Below the pieces are notes generated by a model. The model saw nothing but the letters and a program-made list of their open reading frames with translations. It was not told the DNA's origin and did not search any database. This document shows positions 9,299 through 22,280 of a stretch of 24,508 nt of DNA, piece after piece. A program made the translations under genes and the position numbers. The DNA lies in IMG/VR virus record IMGVR_UViG_3300043399_000098, positions 1 through 24,508 of that record; one strand, given 5' to 3'. Each line of letters begins with the position of its first letter. Within the stretch, counting starts at the first letter, position 1. Origin of the DNA: a virus.

Positions 9299-9742
9299 AT
9301 GCTAACATTAAACCAATTAGTAAAGAAGATACAGGAAATAGGGGAAGCGCACAAACAGATAAAGACAACGTACAACGGCAGCGTATTTGATTTTTTGAGT
9401 AAGGGTAGTGATAACATTTACCCTGCTTTCGTTTACGATGTTTCACAGGGGAATATTAACGGCACTGTATTAACTATTGATTTTTTGCTTTTCTTCTTTG
9501 ACAGGGTTTTACCGGAGCAATACAATGAAACGGAGGTACTTTCTGACCAAGTGCTTATATGTACGGATATTATCGCCCAGTTACGTTATCAGCTTTTTGA
9601 TTTTTACGTAACAGGTAATAACAACATCCAATTTTTCAGGGAAGAAACGCCTGATGTTTTAGCTGGTGTTAGGGCTACTGTCAGCTTTGAAATTCCATAC
9701 GATGCTGATAGGTGTGCAGTACCGACAACTTTTGAATATTAA
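9299..9742 (+). CDS. Tail-terminator/neck-like protein
   Basis: 147 residues. An N-terminal helix (MLTLNQLVKKIQEIGEAHKQ) is followed by a strand-rich domain (IYPAFVYDVSQGNINGTVLT), a conserved-looking NETEVLSDQVLICTDIIAQL helix, and an end with GVRATVSFEIPYDADRCAVP. The alpha-beta arrangement, the PAFVYDV strand and the closing D-x-C-A-V-P motif match a protein I associate with the neck region of Bacteroidota phages, probably equivalent to tail terminator or head-closure proteins. It follows the adaptor-like gene after about 60 bases. A 53-codon GTG frame (9229-9390) bridges that gap, but I do not trust it as a gene. Confidence 0.6.
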   Translation: MLTLNQLVKKIQEIGEAHKQIKTTYNGSVFDFLSKGSDNIYPAFVYDVSQGNINGTVLTIDFLLFFFDRVLPEQYNETEVLSDQVLICTDIIAQLRYQLFDFYVTGNNNIQFFREETPDVLAGVRATVSFEIPYDADRCAVPTTFEY

Positions 9743-12839: not shown

Positions 12840-15205
12840 TGGCGGTAGGGAATCCGATAACTGAATTAAGCACTACGGGGAATTTTGTACCTGTAACACG
12901 AACGCTAACAATAAATGGTGTCAGCTATGACCTTTCGGCTGATAGAAGCTGGAGCATAGCCTCACCCGGTGGCGGTTCGGTTACATCGGTTGCACTCACA
13001 GCCCCCGTTGGATTTTCAGTTTCCGGCTCTCCCGTAACTTCAGCCGGAACGCTTGCCATATCTTTTGCGGCAGGTTATTCTTTGCCTACAACAGTAAAGC
13101 AGTCAAATTGGGATGATGCCTACACCTTCGTTTCTAACTTTCCTTCCCAAACGGGTAACAACGGAAAATTTCTTTACACAAGTGGAAGCGTTTTAAGTTG
13201 GCAACCTGCTTTGCAGAATCCGATGACTGCGGTAGGTGACATGATTTATGGCGGTGTATCCGGAGCGGTTACTGTCCTAACCGGCAATCAAAGTGCTGTA
13301 AGGCAATACCTTCAACAAGTTGGAACGGGTAGTGCATCAACTGCTCCTGTATGGGGTGGCATTGTTTCAACAGATATCAGCGGTCAGGCAATCACAAGGG
13401 TGAATGATACTAACGTAACCCTTACGCTAACAGGTACGCCCGGAAATAGCGTTCTAAACGCTGTTGGGTTGACTTTAGGATGGAGTGGAACGCTGACAGC
13501 GGCAAGAGGTGGGACTGGTACAGGTGGTGTAACAGGCATCATGCTCGGCAATAGTACTGCACCCGTTACGGGGATAACGGGCATAGGTGGTCAAATATTA
13601 CGGGCAAACCCTTCTACTGGTGTTTACGAGTTTTGGACACCTACTTATTTAGAATCACCAATGACCCAACTCGGTCAGATAATCTATTCCGGTGCAGGTG
13701 GTCAGCCTTTAGCATTAAACGCAAATAGTACTGCAAACAATATGTACCTGCGTTCTGTGTCATCCGGAACTCCTTCATGGGCATCCATTCAAGGCGGTGA
13801 TATTGTAGGCGCAGCGATAACAACTGCCAATGACACAAACATACAGATAACTGCATCAGGCAATACAGGTAGCGCATTGCTTCGCACTTTAACACTAACA
13901 GCAGGATGGACAGGAAGCCTTTCTGTTGCTCGTGGCGGTACAGGTACTTCAACGCTTACAGGAGTTTTAATAGGCAATGGAACAAGTGCGGTAACAGGTG
14001 TAACAGGTACGGCTTCGCAATTATTAAGGCGTAACGCTGCTAATACAGCTTATGAGTTTTTCACTCATAACTTTATCAGCAACCCAATGACTACTTTGGG
14101 GGATATTATTTACGGTAATGCAGCAGGCGCACCTTTACGGCTTGGGGCTAATGCAACAAGCGTAAATAAATTTCTCCGCAGCGTTTCAAGTGGCACGCCT
14201 TCATGGGAGCAAATAACGGCAGCGGATGTAAGCGGATTGCTTTCGGGTAGTGGTACATCTGGTAAACTTACTAAATGGACAGGATCGGCAACCCTTGGCG
14301 ATTCAATAGTAACAGAATCGGCTAGCGCTTTGGATGTTTCCGCTTCGGTTGCAAGTACACTAAAGATTGCCAATTTTAGGAATACTAACGCTTCAGGATT
14401 TACATCCATTGGTATAGATAGGTCAGGGGCTGCGAGGTATTCATTTATTGAGCATTCCACTGCTGGCACTACTGATTGGTACGTGGGTACGGCTTACAAT
14501 GCAGGTGGTGGAAATACGAACTATTCGATAGGCACAGGAATCAATCTTTCTGATGCAAAGTTTAATGTACTAACCACAGGGCAGATAAAATTAAACGCGT
14601 ACACATCAAGCCTTTCTTTTTCAGGAATAGTTGCAGGATATTTGGCTTTTACAAGTGGTGGGTCAATTATTACAACAGCTGCACCCGGTGGCGTATCGGG
14701 AACACAAAACTATTTAGCAAAGTTTGATAGCACAGGTCTTGCAGTTGGTAACTCACGCTTTGTAGATGACGGCACAAACTTTTTATTAAATGGCGCATCT
14801 TCATACGTTACAGGGTTTAATCTGATTGGTGACATAGCAATACAGAATACTTCTTCTGCCGCTTTAGTTATGCGCAGAAATGCAATACCTGCAAGCGGTA
14901 ATGAGATAGCGTTTATAGATGCCTATGCAGTTACTACGGGTACAACTTTTACCCGTTCAGCAGGCATTGACTTTGTCGCTTCACAGGCATGGAATAGCAC
15001 AAGCGCAGGAACAGACATAGCAATAACGACAACTCCTGACAATACCATAGCACCAGCGGAGATGTTTAGATTTTTAAATAATGGAGCGGTTAGGTTTATT
15101 GGTAGGACTTCAAACCCATTAAGCCCAGCAGCAGGAACGATGTATTATAATAGTTCAGCAAATCAGATGCGATACTACAACGGAACGACTTGGATATCTT
15201 TTTAA
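12839..15205 (+). CDS. Large tail fibre 2 with ~140-residue internal repeats
   Basis: 788 residues, Ser/Thr/Gly/Asn-rich, no signal peptide. Near the N-terminus is TLTINGVSYDLSADRSWSI, closely similar to a segment of fibre 1. Residues 129-274 and 275-416 are two full copies of a 142-146-residue unit. Each starts like MTxLGxIIYG, carries ARGGTGT in the middle and ends with YEF...SNP/ESP. A third, shorter copy starts at 417. ARGGTG motifs are common in phage fibre shafts. The region after about 470 contains GSGTSGKLTKWTGSATLGDS, similar to a fibre 1 segment, and the protein ends with GTMYYNSSANQMRYYNGTTW, a type of short C-terminal beta motif frequent in fibres. This is probably a second adhesion protein or the distal part of the same fibre complex. 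Confidence 0.72.
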   Translation: MAVGNPITELSTTGNFVPVTRTLTINGVSYDLSADRSWSIASPGGGSVTSVALTAPVGFSVSGSPVTSAGTLAISFAAGYSLPTTVKQSNWDDAYTFVSNFPSQTGNNGKFLYTSGSVLSWQPALQNPMTAVGDMIYGGVSGAVTVLTGNQSAVRQYLQQVGTGSASTAPVWGGIVSTDISGQAITRVNDTNVTLTLTGTPGNSVLNAVGLTLGWSGTLTAARGGTGTGGVTGIMLGNSTAPVTGITGIGGQILRANPSTGVYEFWTPTYLESPMTQLGQIIYSGAGGQPLALNANSTANNMYLRSVSSGTPSWASIQGGDIVGAAITTANDTNIQITASGNTGSALLRTLTLTAGWTGSLSVARGGTGTSTLTGVLIGNGTSAVTGVTGTASQLLRRNAANTAYEFFTHNFISNPMTTLGDIIYGNAAGAPLRLGANATSVNKFLRSVSSGTPSWEQITAADVSGLLSGSGTSGKLTKWTGSATLGDSIVTESASALDVSASVASTLKIANFRNTNASGFTSIGIDRSGAARYSFIEHSTAGTTDWYVGTAYNAGGGNTNYSIGTGINLSDAKFNVLTTGQIKLNAYTSSLSFSGIVAGYLAFTSGGSIITTAAPGGVSGTQNYLAKFDSTGLAVGNSRFVDDGTNFLLNGASSYVTGFNLIGDIAIQNTSSAALVMRRNAIPASGNEIAFIDAYAVTTGTTFTRSAGIDFVASQAWNSTSAGTDIAITTTPDNTIAPAEMFRFLNNGAVRFIGRTSNPLSPAAGTMYYNSSANQMRYYNGTTWISF
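13223..14240 (+). repeat. Two and a half ~430-bp repeats in fibre 2
   Basis: Unit starts are at 13223, 13661 and 14087, each coding a segment beginning MTxxGDMIYG-like. The repeats are well diverged at DNA level but aligned over their length; the third stops after about 50 residues (RSVSSGTPSW shared by copies 2 and 3, coded near 13750 and 14175). Confidence 0.75.
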
Positions 15206-20460: not shown

Positions 20461-20684
20461 ATGCGCATTTAGAAAACGCAATATCTTACCTGCTTTATGA
20501 CCTTTCACTACCGATAGAAGAACGACCTGCCAAAGCGGTATTTTTCAAAACAGGCATAGACCTTGCCAATTATCTTGGAATCAATAGCACCCGTTTGCCT
20601 TATGTTCGTGTACCGGGTAAGAAGGTAACAGGTAAAGACGGCAAAATATATGCGGTAAGAATTGCACCTGATAAGAAAAAATAA
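20457..20684 (+). CDS. Small basic protein, uncharacterised
   Basis: 75 residues with net positive charge. An N-terminal helix (LENAISYLLYDLSLPIEERP) is followed by a small alpha/beta part with FFKTGIDLANYLGINSTRLP and a basic end (KVTGKDGKIYAVRIAPDKKK). It is coupled to the upstream gene by ATGA. Size and charge would allow nucleic-acid binding, but no named domain is recognised. It is the last gene before the structured RNA region. Confidence 0.6.
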   Translation: MNAHLENAISYLLYDLSLPIEERPAKAVFFKTGIDLANYLGINSTRLPYVRVPGKKVTGKDGKIYAVRIAPDKKK

Positions 20685-20686
20685 AT

Positions 20687-20694
20687 TATATTTG
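20687..20694 (+). promoter_or_regulatory. Candidate promoter (-7 element) for the structured RNA
   Basis: TATATTTG matches the -7 element of Bacteroidota promoters and would place the transcription start at about 20700, right at the base of the first RNA hairpin. The -33 element is poor (ATTG at 20661-20664, 22 bases upstream). Confidence 0.5.
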
Positions 20695-20699
20695 TGTTG

Positions 20700-20808
20700 C
20701 AACTAATGACGTGAGACCCATTAGTGATGGAAAACATTTAATGCCCAAAATGGCAGGGAGGCTGTGTAAGAACATAGTCGGTTTCACCCCTGCTGTTTTG
20801 GGTTTTTT
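20700..20808 (+). ncRNA. Structured leader RNA / attenuator before the replication gene
   Basis: Hairpin 1 is ACTAATG (20702-20708) with CATTAGT (20719-20725), perfect 7 base pairs. Its 10-base loop contains GTGAGACC (20711-20718), which is complementary (8 pairs, one G-U) to GGTTTCAC (20780-20787), so a long-range pseudoknot is possible. Hairpin 2 is CCCAAAATGGCAGGG (20744-20758) with CCCTGCTGTTTTGGG (20788-20802): 15 base pairs with two wobbles, a 29-base loop that contains the pseudoknot partner, and six T (20803-20808). This is an intrinsic terminator ending 4 bases before the replication gene start. The arrangement fits a cis-acting attenuator/riboswitch-like leader or a small terminated RNA. 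No known RNA class is recognised. Confidence 0.65.
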
Positions 20809-20812
20809 ATTT

Positions 20813-21613
20813 ATGAAAAAGGATGCGTTTTACTTTCCGCATTTTTCTAATGCAAGCAAGGACAACAAGATTAGAAGACTTGAAAAAGAATTAGGGCTTG
20901 AAGGCTATGCTATATATTTCAAGCTGTTAGAAGTCCTGCGTGAATCTTCAGAATACAAGTATCCGATGGATGACGTAGACCTGCTTGCTGATGACTTTGG
21001 AACAAGTGAGCAAAAGGTCAGGGTTGTAATTTGTAATTACGGGCTTTTTAATATTGACGAGGCTAATAATTTCTTCAGCATAAAGCAGATTTATTACCTT
21101 CAGCCATACATTGAAAAGACGCAAAGAGCAAGGGTTGCAGCACAAAAGAGATGGGATAAGGTCGAAGGTGATGCAAATGCAATGCAAATGCATAGCAAAT
21201 GCAATGCTGATGCAATGCAAATAAAGGAAAGTAAAGTAAAAGAAAGTAAACTAAAGGAAACAAAAGAAGAAAGTACTTTGGTTTTTATTTCTAATGAATG
21301 GCAGGAGTTATGGCAGGGATGGGTTGAGCATAAGCGAAGCCAATTTAAAGACAAGTACAAAACAGCACAATCAGAACAGATAGCCATTAACCAACTTGTT
21401 GAAATGTCAGGAGGCGAAATAGAAACGGCTCGTGAAATAGTAAAGGCTTCCGTTAGCAATCTTTGGAAAGGTTTATTCAAATTAAAAATCAATAACAATG
21501 CTTCCACTCAATCAGGCAATCAATCAGGCACTTTCGACAAGTACAGGGACAGGCTCGAACAATCCCGGAAGTTTGCAGAAGAACTTGACAAGCAGCGAGG
21601 CTTTAGACCTTGA
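20813..21613 (+). CDS. DUF4373-type (Lin1244/Lin1753-like) replication protein
   Basis: 266 residues from the ATG at 20813. The family start MKKDAFYFPHFSNASKDNKI follows directly; the frame stays open upstream to a GTG at 20711, but that stretch coincides with the structured RNA and I reject it. The N-terminal domain (RRLEKELGLEGYAIYFKLLE, then EVLRESSEYKYPMDDVDLLA and FGTSEQKVRVVICNYGLFNI) is the DUF4373 winged-helix type related to phage and plasmid replication initiators. The middle is a low-complexity linker with short Asn/Ala/Met/Gln repeats and Lys/Glu-rich sequence, and the C-terminus is helical (TFDKYRDRLEQSRKFAEELD). It probably binds the origin and recruits replication proteins. The expression of this gene may be controlled by the terminator immediately upstream. 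Confidence 0.82.
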   Translation: MKKDAFYFPHFSNASKDNKIRRLEKELGLEGYAIYFKLLEVLRESSEYKYPMDDVDLLADDFGTSEQKVRVVICNYGLFNIDEANNFFSIKQIYYLQPYIEKTQRARVAAQKRWDKVEGDANAMQMHSKCNADAMQIKESKVKESKLKETKEESTLVFISNEWQELWQGWVEHKRSQFKDKYKTAQSEQIAINQLVEMSGGEIETAREIVKASVSNLWKGLFKLKINNNASTQSGNQSGTFDKYRDRLEQSRKFAEELDKQRGFRP

Positions 21614-22280
21614 ACGATTCCAGCTGGCACGTTCTTCCGCTATGTTTAAAGACGTTAGCATGGCAATGGCTTTTGAGTTGCTTTTGGGTGGAATGTATAA
21701 ACTGGGCGTAAAACCCGAAAAAGCACCAAATGACCACGATTTGGCTTTAATGCAGGCTGCCATAGTTGAGGAATACCCGAACATCAAAGTAGGCGAAATT
21801 GGGCTTGCTTTCGATTTGGCAAGCAAAGGGAAGCTGGACATGGATGCAGAAACTTATCAAAATTTTTCCCTGCTATACCTGCACAGGATTCTGCGAGCCT
21901 TTGCCCGTTATGGATTGGCAAAGCTAAACGAAGTTAAACCTATCCAGCAGGAACAGAAATGGAATCCGAGGCCTGTTTCCGATGATGAAAAGCTGAAAAC
22001 GGCATGGCAATGTTATAACAGATTCAGGCAATGGGATGCTATTGTATTCGGTTTAGACTGCTTTTGGATTCTTTACAAGCGTGGTAAAATTATCGTAACT
22101 CCTGAAGCTACGCTGCAAAAGGTTAAAAAGGCAATGAATGACCAAATGATAACGGGAAGTAGTAGGAGAAAGGCGGAAATTGCAGGGCTATTAAATGATG
22201 ATGAATACATGGAAAACCAATGTAAGCGTATGGCAGTCGCTGACTATTTTGATACTTTTTTAAAAAAAGATGGAAAATAA
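21498..22280 (+). CDS. Replication-module protein, uncharacterised
   Basis: 260 residues from 21498, with a 116-base overlap of the previous gene; an ATG at 21642 would give 212 residues without overlap. The region LDLERFQLARSSAMFKDVSM before that ATG looks like real coding helix, so an upstream start is plausible. A core segment NDHDLALMQAAIVEEYPNIK and VGEIGLAFDLASKGKLDMDA resembles proteins I associate with Bacteroidota phage replication regions. It is mostly helical, with no ATPase motif, and is followed by a basic end (GSSRRKAEIAGLLND, KRMAVADYFDTFLKKDGK). A helicase-loader-like or replication-accessory role is inferred from its position behind the DUF4373 gene; I do not recognise a named family. 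Confidence 0.65.
   Translation: MLPLNQAINQALSTSTGTGSNNPGSLQKNLTSSEALDLERFQLARSSAMFKDVSMAMAFELLLGGMYKLGVKPEKAPNDHDLALMQAAIVEEYPNIKVGEIGLAFDLASKGKLDMDAETYQNFSLLYLHRILRAFARYGLAKLNEVKPIQQEQKWNPRPVSDDEKLKTAWQCYNRFRQWDAIVFGLDCFWILYKRGKIIVTPEATLQKVKKAMNDQMITGSSRRKAEIAGLLNDDEYMENQCKRMAVADYFDTFLKKDGK

Follow-up and report, generated by a model that had tools for sequence, protein, structure and literature searches.

The window, by which is meant the whole stretch of DNA analysed, is a 24,508-base IMG/VR virus record in which genes for tail, capsid, portal and endolysin are present. The product of the gene at 20813-21613 matches Pfam PF14297 Lin1244_N (E 4.8e-15) and a PHROG annotated as replication initiation protein (E 8.7e-20), and it is referred to here as the rep gene. 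The open reading frame upstream ends at 20684, and the gap up to the rep gene is filled by the parts of a leader, which from 20687 to 20812 follow one another as a Bacteroidota promoter, a first hairpin (P1), an A/T-rich linker, an intrinsic-terminator hairpin (P2) and six U, with the rep ATG 4 nt further on. The features are as follows:

20662..20664, + strand: TTG, possible -33-type promoter element (sequence)
20687..20694, + strand: -7 box TATATTTG, of the Bacteroidota TAnnTTTG type (sequence; consensus and spacing from PMC6847099)
20702..20725, + strand: P1 hairpin, perfect 7 bp, 20702-20708 with 20719-20725 (sequence, folding; covariation in relatives)
20709..20718, + strand: P1 loop, 10-mer ACGTGAGACC (sequence)
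20711..20718, + strand: kissing segment GTGAGACC in the P1 loop (pairs with 20780-20787; covaries in relatives)
20726..20743, + strand: A/T-rich linker between P1 and P2 (sequence)
20744..20802, + strand: P2 intrinsic-terminator hairpin, 15 bp with two G-U pairs, 20744-20758 with 20788-20802 (sequence, folding)
20760..20779, + strand: inner P2 hairpin, 8 bp, 5' of the kissing partner (folding)
20780..20787, + strand: kissing partner GGTTTCAC, adjoining the P2 right arm on its 5' side, no gap (sequence, pairing)
20803..20808, + strand: T6 tract of the intrinsic terminator (sequence)
20813..21613, + strand: replication initiation gene, ATG 4 nt past the T tract (Pfam PF14297 Lin1244_N; PHROG 2562)

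The end of the rep gene is overlapped by a gene at 21498-22280, which has no Pfam match and phrog_26016 (function unknown) as its sole PHROG, and which is possibly a replication partner.

A preliminary description of this DNA had placed a -7 promoter element at 20687-20694 and the start of transcription right at the first hairpin. The box is present and, since the G of the -7 box lies at -5 according to the promoter rule of F. johnsoniae (PMC6847099), +1 is predicted near 20699, so that P1 would be the first thing transcribed. Among the core elements having such a box, P1 starts 1-6 nt past TTTG in 29 of 38, and the sense -33 TTG is enriched (24/35 core-set promoters compared with 10.2 expected).

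The perfect 7-bp hairpin at 20702-20725, the 15-bp hairpin at 20744-20802 with its two G-U pairs, the six T ending at 20808 and the protein start at 20813 were all found as previously described. P2, with its 15 bp followed by T6 and ending 4 nt before the ATG, thus has the sequence of an intrinsic terminator or attenuator. The pairing of the P1 loop with 20780-20787 was also recovered, not by the whole loop as had been claimed but by the 8-mer 20711-20718 of the 10-mer, the resulting GTGAGACC/GGTTTCAC helix including one G-U pair. Two features were absent from the first account, namely the inner P2 hairpin at 20760-20779, with similar inner hairpins in L001, L019 and L047, and the zero gap by which the kissing partner abuts the P2 3' arm. 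The pseudoknot postulated beside the right arm of the terminator is real, and it is better termed an intramolecular kissing-loop complex, its kissing helix covarying in relatives. The leader folds with an MFE of -40.2 kcal/mol (z = -4.1), a value equalled by none of 200 shuffles, and the combined score of P1, kiss and P2 reaches -54.5 compared with a best of -35.7 among 300 shuffles. As to the linkers, that of the window (20726-20743) and those of most relatives are A/T-rich with recurring AAAACATTTAAT, AAACTTATT or AAGAAATTA.

Relatives of the rep protein are encoded by 54 viral loci, and for these the 170 nt upstream were taken and searched for P1, a match between loop and terminator, and a T run. 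Leaders of Lin1244_N homologs display the same architecture in unrelated sequence, the kissing pairs being ATGCGAC/GTCGCAT in L002, GTCGGAT/ATCCGAC in L004, GTAGTGTG/CACACTAC in L005, GTGGAACA/TGTTCCAC in L019, AGTAAGGAGT/ACTCCTTACT in L033, CTACGAA/TTCGTAG in L044, GTAGAACA/TGTTCTAC in L047 and GTAGCAG/CTGCTAC in L053. Despite these very different sequences, a T run stands directly past the P2 3' arm in most of the relatives' leaders. Many homologous genes are without such a leader, among them the rep relatives L006, L031 and L052. Conservation of the protein frame upstream of 20813 had been named as an outcome that would speak against an RNA element; in the homologs, the protein is kept only from the ATG. 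A frame started by GTG at 20711, which would make the leader protein-coding, was rejected because the homologs' protein starts at the ATG at 20813 and the leader sequences are unrelated.

The leader changes far more than the gene that it precedes. Over the first 200 nt of rep and over the leader respectively, identities are 95% and 68% for L027/L004 (shuffled leaders 66%), 95% and 69% for L004/L025 (shuffled 63), 90% and 61% for L002/L004 (shuffled 63) and 87% and 62% for L024/L025 (shuffled 66), all taken from gapped alignments and therefore inflated alike. Complementary loops that vary between related phages, a feature of the P4 CI, c4 and IsrK RNAs, are thus found here as chance-level leader identity beside a rep gene 87-95% identical. 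Such turnover in front of a near-constant gene could be due to recombinational replacement, diversifying selection or loose constraint. Moreover, where two elements occur in one genome (L158, L306, hattifnatt9-1, FCV-1, L111), their kissing sequences are different.

For statistical support, 43 leaders of four families (Lin1244_N, a second Lin1244_N group, DUF6291 and DExD helicase) were chosen without any pairing criterion, by a suitably spaced TAnnTTTG, with up to one additional spacer base, together with a T run before the ATG. Their own dinucleotide shuffles were beaten by 32 of the 43 at p<=0.05 and by 27 at p<=0.01, compared with about 2 and 0.4 expected. The two descriptors used are rigid, in that they miss elements visible by eye and sometimes take the wrong helix (as for the window and L001 in the 43-leader test), and some weak single matches are due to chance.

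Covariation of P1, kiss, inner P2 and outer P2 was followed in two plain, sequence-only MAFFT alignments. In A3, whose rows come from homology alone except L111b, 90.1% of cells are paired vs 70.4 after shuffling, with 36 double-changed cells vs 14.4; in A2, whose rows were partly found by a pairing scan, the values are 96.4% vs 77.3 and 47 vs 15.0. When the partner is slid by one column, pairing drops to 35-46% in both. The preliminary description had proposed covariation of the helices as a check and an absence of compensatory changes as the refuting outcome; double-sided changes were seen in all four helices. The kissing helix is 89-100% paired, with double changes in 3/7 and 5/8 of its pairs in the two alignments, the latter being A2, where every counted cell of this helix is paired. 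A clean example is given by the nearly identical L373 and L382, which carry the kissing pairs CGTCTGAC/GTCAGACG and CTTCTGAC/GTCAGAAG respectively. Thus, as in a kissing loop, six to eight complementary bases are kept by compensatory changes, and the order promoter, P1, kiss, P2, U tract and ATG is conserved along with all its helices. Covariation does not separate pairing in cis from pairing in trans. In A3, AAACTTATT in the linker is nearly invariant, although the helices vary.

The geometry was described on 48 non-redundant elements, kept from 64 automatic hits after chance-looking ones had been dropped by eye. Since this core set was picked by pairing, a comparison of own and cross pairing within it is partly circular, and weight is therefore placed on the 43-leader test, the alignments and the host control given below; likewise, how often core-set elements have a T run carries no independent weight, since the descriptor requires one. 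Among the 45 parsable elements, the kiss measures 6 (5 elements), 7 (27), 8 (12) or 10 bp (1), that is 6-8 bp in 44 of them; the gap between the partner and the P2 3' arm is zero in 38, the 5' gap at the partner is 0-2 nt in 41, and the linker has a median of 15 nt, with the middle half at 11-16 nt. As a test of pairing in cis, linker length was compared with stem length and no positive correlation was obtained (rho -0.26, p 0.09), partly because RNAfold pairs some linkers. Across the 48 elements the letters of helices and loops are nearly free, while pairing, spacing and the A/T-rich linker are kept.

The element had been proposed to control phage replication. Replication genes are indeed its commonest position, but this description is too narrow, the same leader also heading genes of other kinds; family membership was tested on one or two representatives per kind of downstream gene, the rest being named by sequence similarity. 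It precedes DUF6291 genes (L236, L245, L361, L393, L400, L403, L412), DExD helicase genes (L134, L300, L306, L308, L321), HNH/NUMOD4 genes (L111, L141, L154, FCV-1), a GIY-YIG-like gene (T5orf172/MUG113, L118), a ParB-like gene (L148), for which a homolog scan gave one new relative only, and ABC-GNAT genes (L139, L228). The HNH or NUMOD4 endonuclease genes (L330, which is FCV-1, and L111, L141, L154), homing type in appearance, come with their own promoter and kissing terminator.

The complete succession of promoter, P1, kiss, P2, T run and open reading frame occurs at 28.7, 37.5, 104.5 and 45.5 per Mb in four phage-locus sets, which are not genome averages since the sets are centred on genes often carrying the element, while the shuffled sets gave 0-3 hits. 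Genome loci surrounding Lin1244_N genes give 9.3 per Mb, and the 865 kb of Bacteroidota chromosomes that serve as host control, similar in G+C (0.339 vs 0.345), give 4.6 per Mb, the same as after shuffling.

Taken together, the leader is probably best read as a kissing-loop transcription attenuator with a translational component, whose default product would be an RNA of ~110 nt and which would represent a widespread phage class. Transcription from the promoter at 20687 would yield an RNA in which P1 folds at once, and the inner unpaired segment of P2 would then kiss the P1 loop by 7-8 bp, stacked on the P2 right arm. The default outcome for many RNA polymerases would be to halt in the U tract, 4 nt short of the rep ATG, and to free a compact short RNA, so that rep mRNA would arise only from read-through. 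Translation should also be lowered by the P2 arm lying next to the ATG, general data on Flavobacterium suggesting such an effect of structure near the start (PMC6847099). Such an attenuator would make the expression of replication genes and others weak or conditional, with the kiss setting the ease with which the terminator closes. We infer that P2 terminates in vivo, that read-through is partial, that the leader is regulatory and which way the kiss acts. For the last of these, we lean to a kiss that would nucleate and stabilise the terminator, because it abuts the P2 right arm and extends the right-arm strand, while a taut linker could act in the opposite way, against P2 formation. Against the attenuator reading stand the many homologous genes that lack such a leader and the fact that no alternative antiterminator helix was noticed.

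The kissing-type leader is kept in L406, L410 and L419 with no U tract right behind P2, and termination may therefore not be the essential function in all members. This bears on a quite improbable reading of the element as mainly one of translation or stability, in which the 5' hairpin and the kissing complex would shield the 5' end of the mRNA and hide the start region, the U tract being minor. The variants just named and the position of P2 and the T tract, which in the window end 4 nt before the ATG where structure would lower Flavobacterium translation (PMC6847099), are in its favour, whereas the T run that most leaders, very different as their sequences are, have right behind the P2 3' arm argues against it. 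In L406, L410 and L419 the variant leader lies ~150 nt upstream of a DUF6291 gene, its 5' strand pairs into the P2 loop, and a hairpin with the conserved loop TTTAGCGG stands between that strand and P2. The preliminary description had also suggested a riboswitch-like element, and kissing or pseudoknot contacts combined with a terminator are a common riboswitch plan. A metabolite riboswitch, in which P1, kiss and P2 would form a binding pocket that controls P2, is nevertheless highly improbable: no conserved nucleotide core was noticed in an informal look at the 48-element set, where helix and loop letters vary almost freely, and the downstream phage genes share no common pathway. The suggestion is not supported since no conserved ligand-binding core was seen. 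The analogy proposed earlier with the attenuation of plasmid rep genes fits the position before a rep gene and the attenuator-like terminator, but it breaks down where a countertranscribed RNA is called for. In the element or at the gene start, antisense -7 boxes show no enrichment (7/48 vs 8.3 expected), which makes copy control of the pT181, pIP501 or ColE2 type scarcely credible, and this candidate was rejected on that count.

Action of the terminated RNA in trans seems to us possible rather than probable. The ~110-nt RNA would then be the main product and would kiss the leader as it is being made, or read-through mRNA, where the specificity matches, with the effect of a dosage feedback, or of replication control in superinfection or incompatibility, as with P4 CI RNA, P1/P7 c4 and Gifsy-1 IsrK; the loops would therefore be specificity determinants. 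The chance-level leader identity in the four pairs of near-constant rep genes, the differing kissing sequences among elements of one genome and the majority of elements at replication genes are all consistent with such a role, and loops of 6-8 nt are typical for intermolecular kissing RNAs. On the other hand, the loops are already occupied in cis, the linker has a fairly constant length, which pairing in cis needs and pairing in trans does not, several carriers are presumably lytic isolates, and it is not obvious why HNH and GIY-YIG genes should need immunity. Precedents for the order promoter, RNA, terminator and gene are IsrK and P4 (PMC4825925). An unlikely extension of the same idea is that of phage specificity RNAs, in which short kissing-loop RNAs released from replication-operon leaders would form a new class and silence the same operon of like phages in trans, their hypervariable self-matching loops serving as a recognition code across Bacteroidota phages; if true, it would mean dosage control together with RNA-based superinfection exclusion or incompatibility.

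Compared with known systems, the attenuator reading preferred here shares parts with several, of which the phage RNAs IsrK and P4 come nearest in function. Like P1/P7 c4 RNA (Rfam C4), in which loop differences set heteroimmunity, it is a phage leader whose loops are complementary to a stretch further down its own transcript; the c4 target is the icd/ant start region and, to our knowledge, c4 has no terminator-embedded kissing hairpin. In the repZ leader pseudoknot of IncB/IncI-alpha plasmids (ColIb-P9), a hairpin loop also pairs downstream before a replication initiator gene, but that plasmid leader acts on translation, is opposed by an antisense RNA and is not known to have an intrinsic terminator. 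Kissing-loop riboswitches with an intrinsic terminator, such as those for purine, likewise combine a loop-loop contact and a terminator in a 5' leader, whereas in the phage leader the terminator hairpin is itself one partner of the kiss, and a conserved aptamer core was not seen. As PMC4825925 describes it, IsrK of the Salmonella prophage Gifsy-1 has its own promoter, a short RNA that is also mRNA leader sequence, an intrinsic terminator and a fraction of transcripts reading through into a phage gene, and its short form acts in trans; it differs in acting on an antirepressor gene in Salmonella, and no kissing-loop architecture was seen in its description there. According to the same paper, the P4 replication genes are under premature leader termination via RNA-RNA pairing (CI RNA and SeqA leader), CI being processed from an untranslated transcript and pairing with seqA and seqC, whereas here two loops of one leader pair and a single terminator stands directly before the ATG.

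No known class had been assigned to the leader, and in agreement with this Rfam 15 gave no family at the gathering cut-off for the window and 18 further loci (nearly all with elements), a permissive search yielding chance-level matches only. Within the limited open-access literature searched, the element is not described. Its parts are of known kinds, while no account seems to exist of their combination, geometry, sequence hypervariability and spread among Bacteroidota phages. Because the fold recurs before many genes of these phages with its letters almost free, the leader appears to belong to a so far undescribed family of gene switches in phages. Conventional RNA searches would tend to miss it since structure and geometry are conserved and letters are not. 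Little is understood of how Bacteroidota phages control transcription, and the element is a common, apparently unlisted leader class among them. Its dozens of matched 6-8-nt kissing pairs lend themselves to studies of loop-loop recognition and are possible orthogonal RNA parts.

The element also offers testable control points heading phage replication modules, including those of isolated Flavobacterium and Olleya phages. In Flavobacterium phage hattifnatt9-1 (MN812207), one element (9372-9458) precedes the helicase gene and a second (14346-14441) precedes the unit gp044-gp045-primase, before which the element is also found in phages hemulen9-1 and tooticki6-1. Phage FCV-1 has an element at record positions 40365-40450 and a probable second one upstream of CDS 35995, GTAGAGAG/CTCTCTAC, read by eye. 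In Olleya phage Harreka_1, the element at 30081-30169 of the record heads a run of genes, the third of which is an annotated replication protein. The annotated start of the hattifnatt9-1 helicase (9441; L329, 9441-9480) falls inside the terminator hairpin, and homology and the leader point to an ATG near 9477. At 13901-13986 of L097, a good kissing-terminator element follows a TATTTTTG promoter with no clear open reading frame right behind it, and is possibly a free-standing short RNA.
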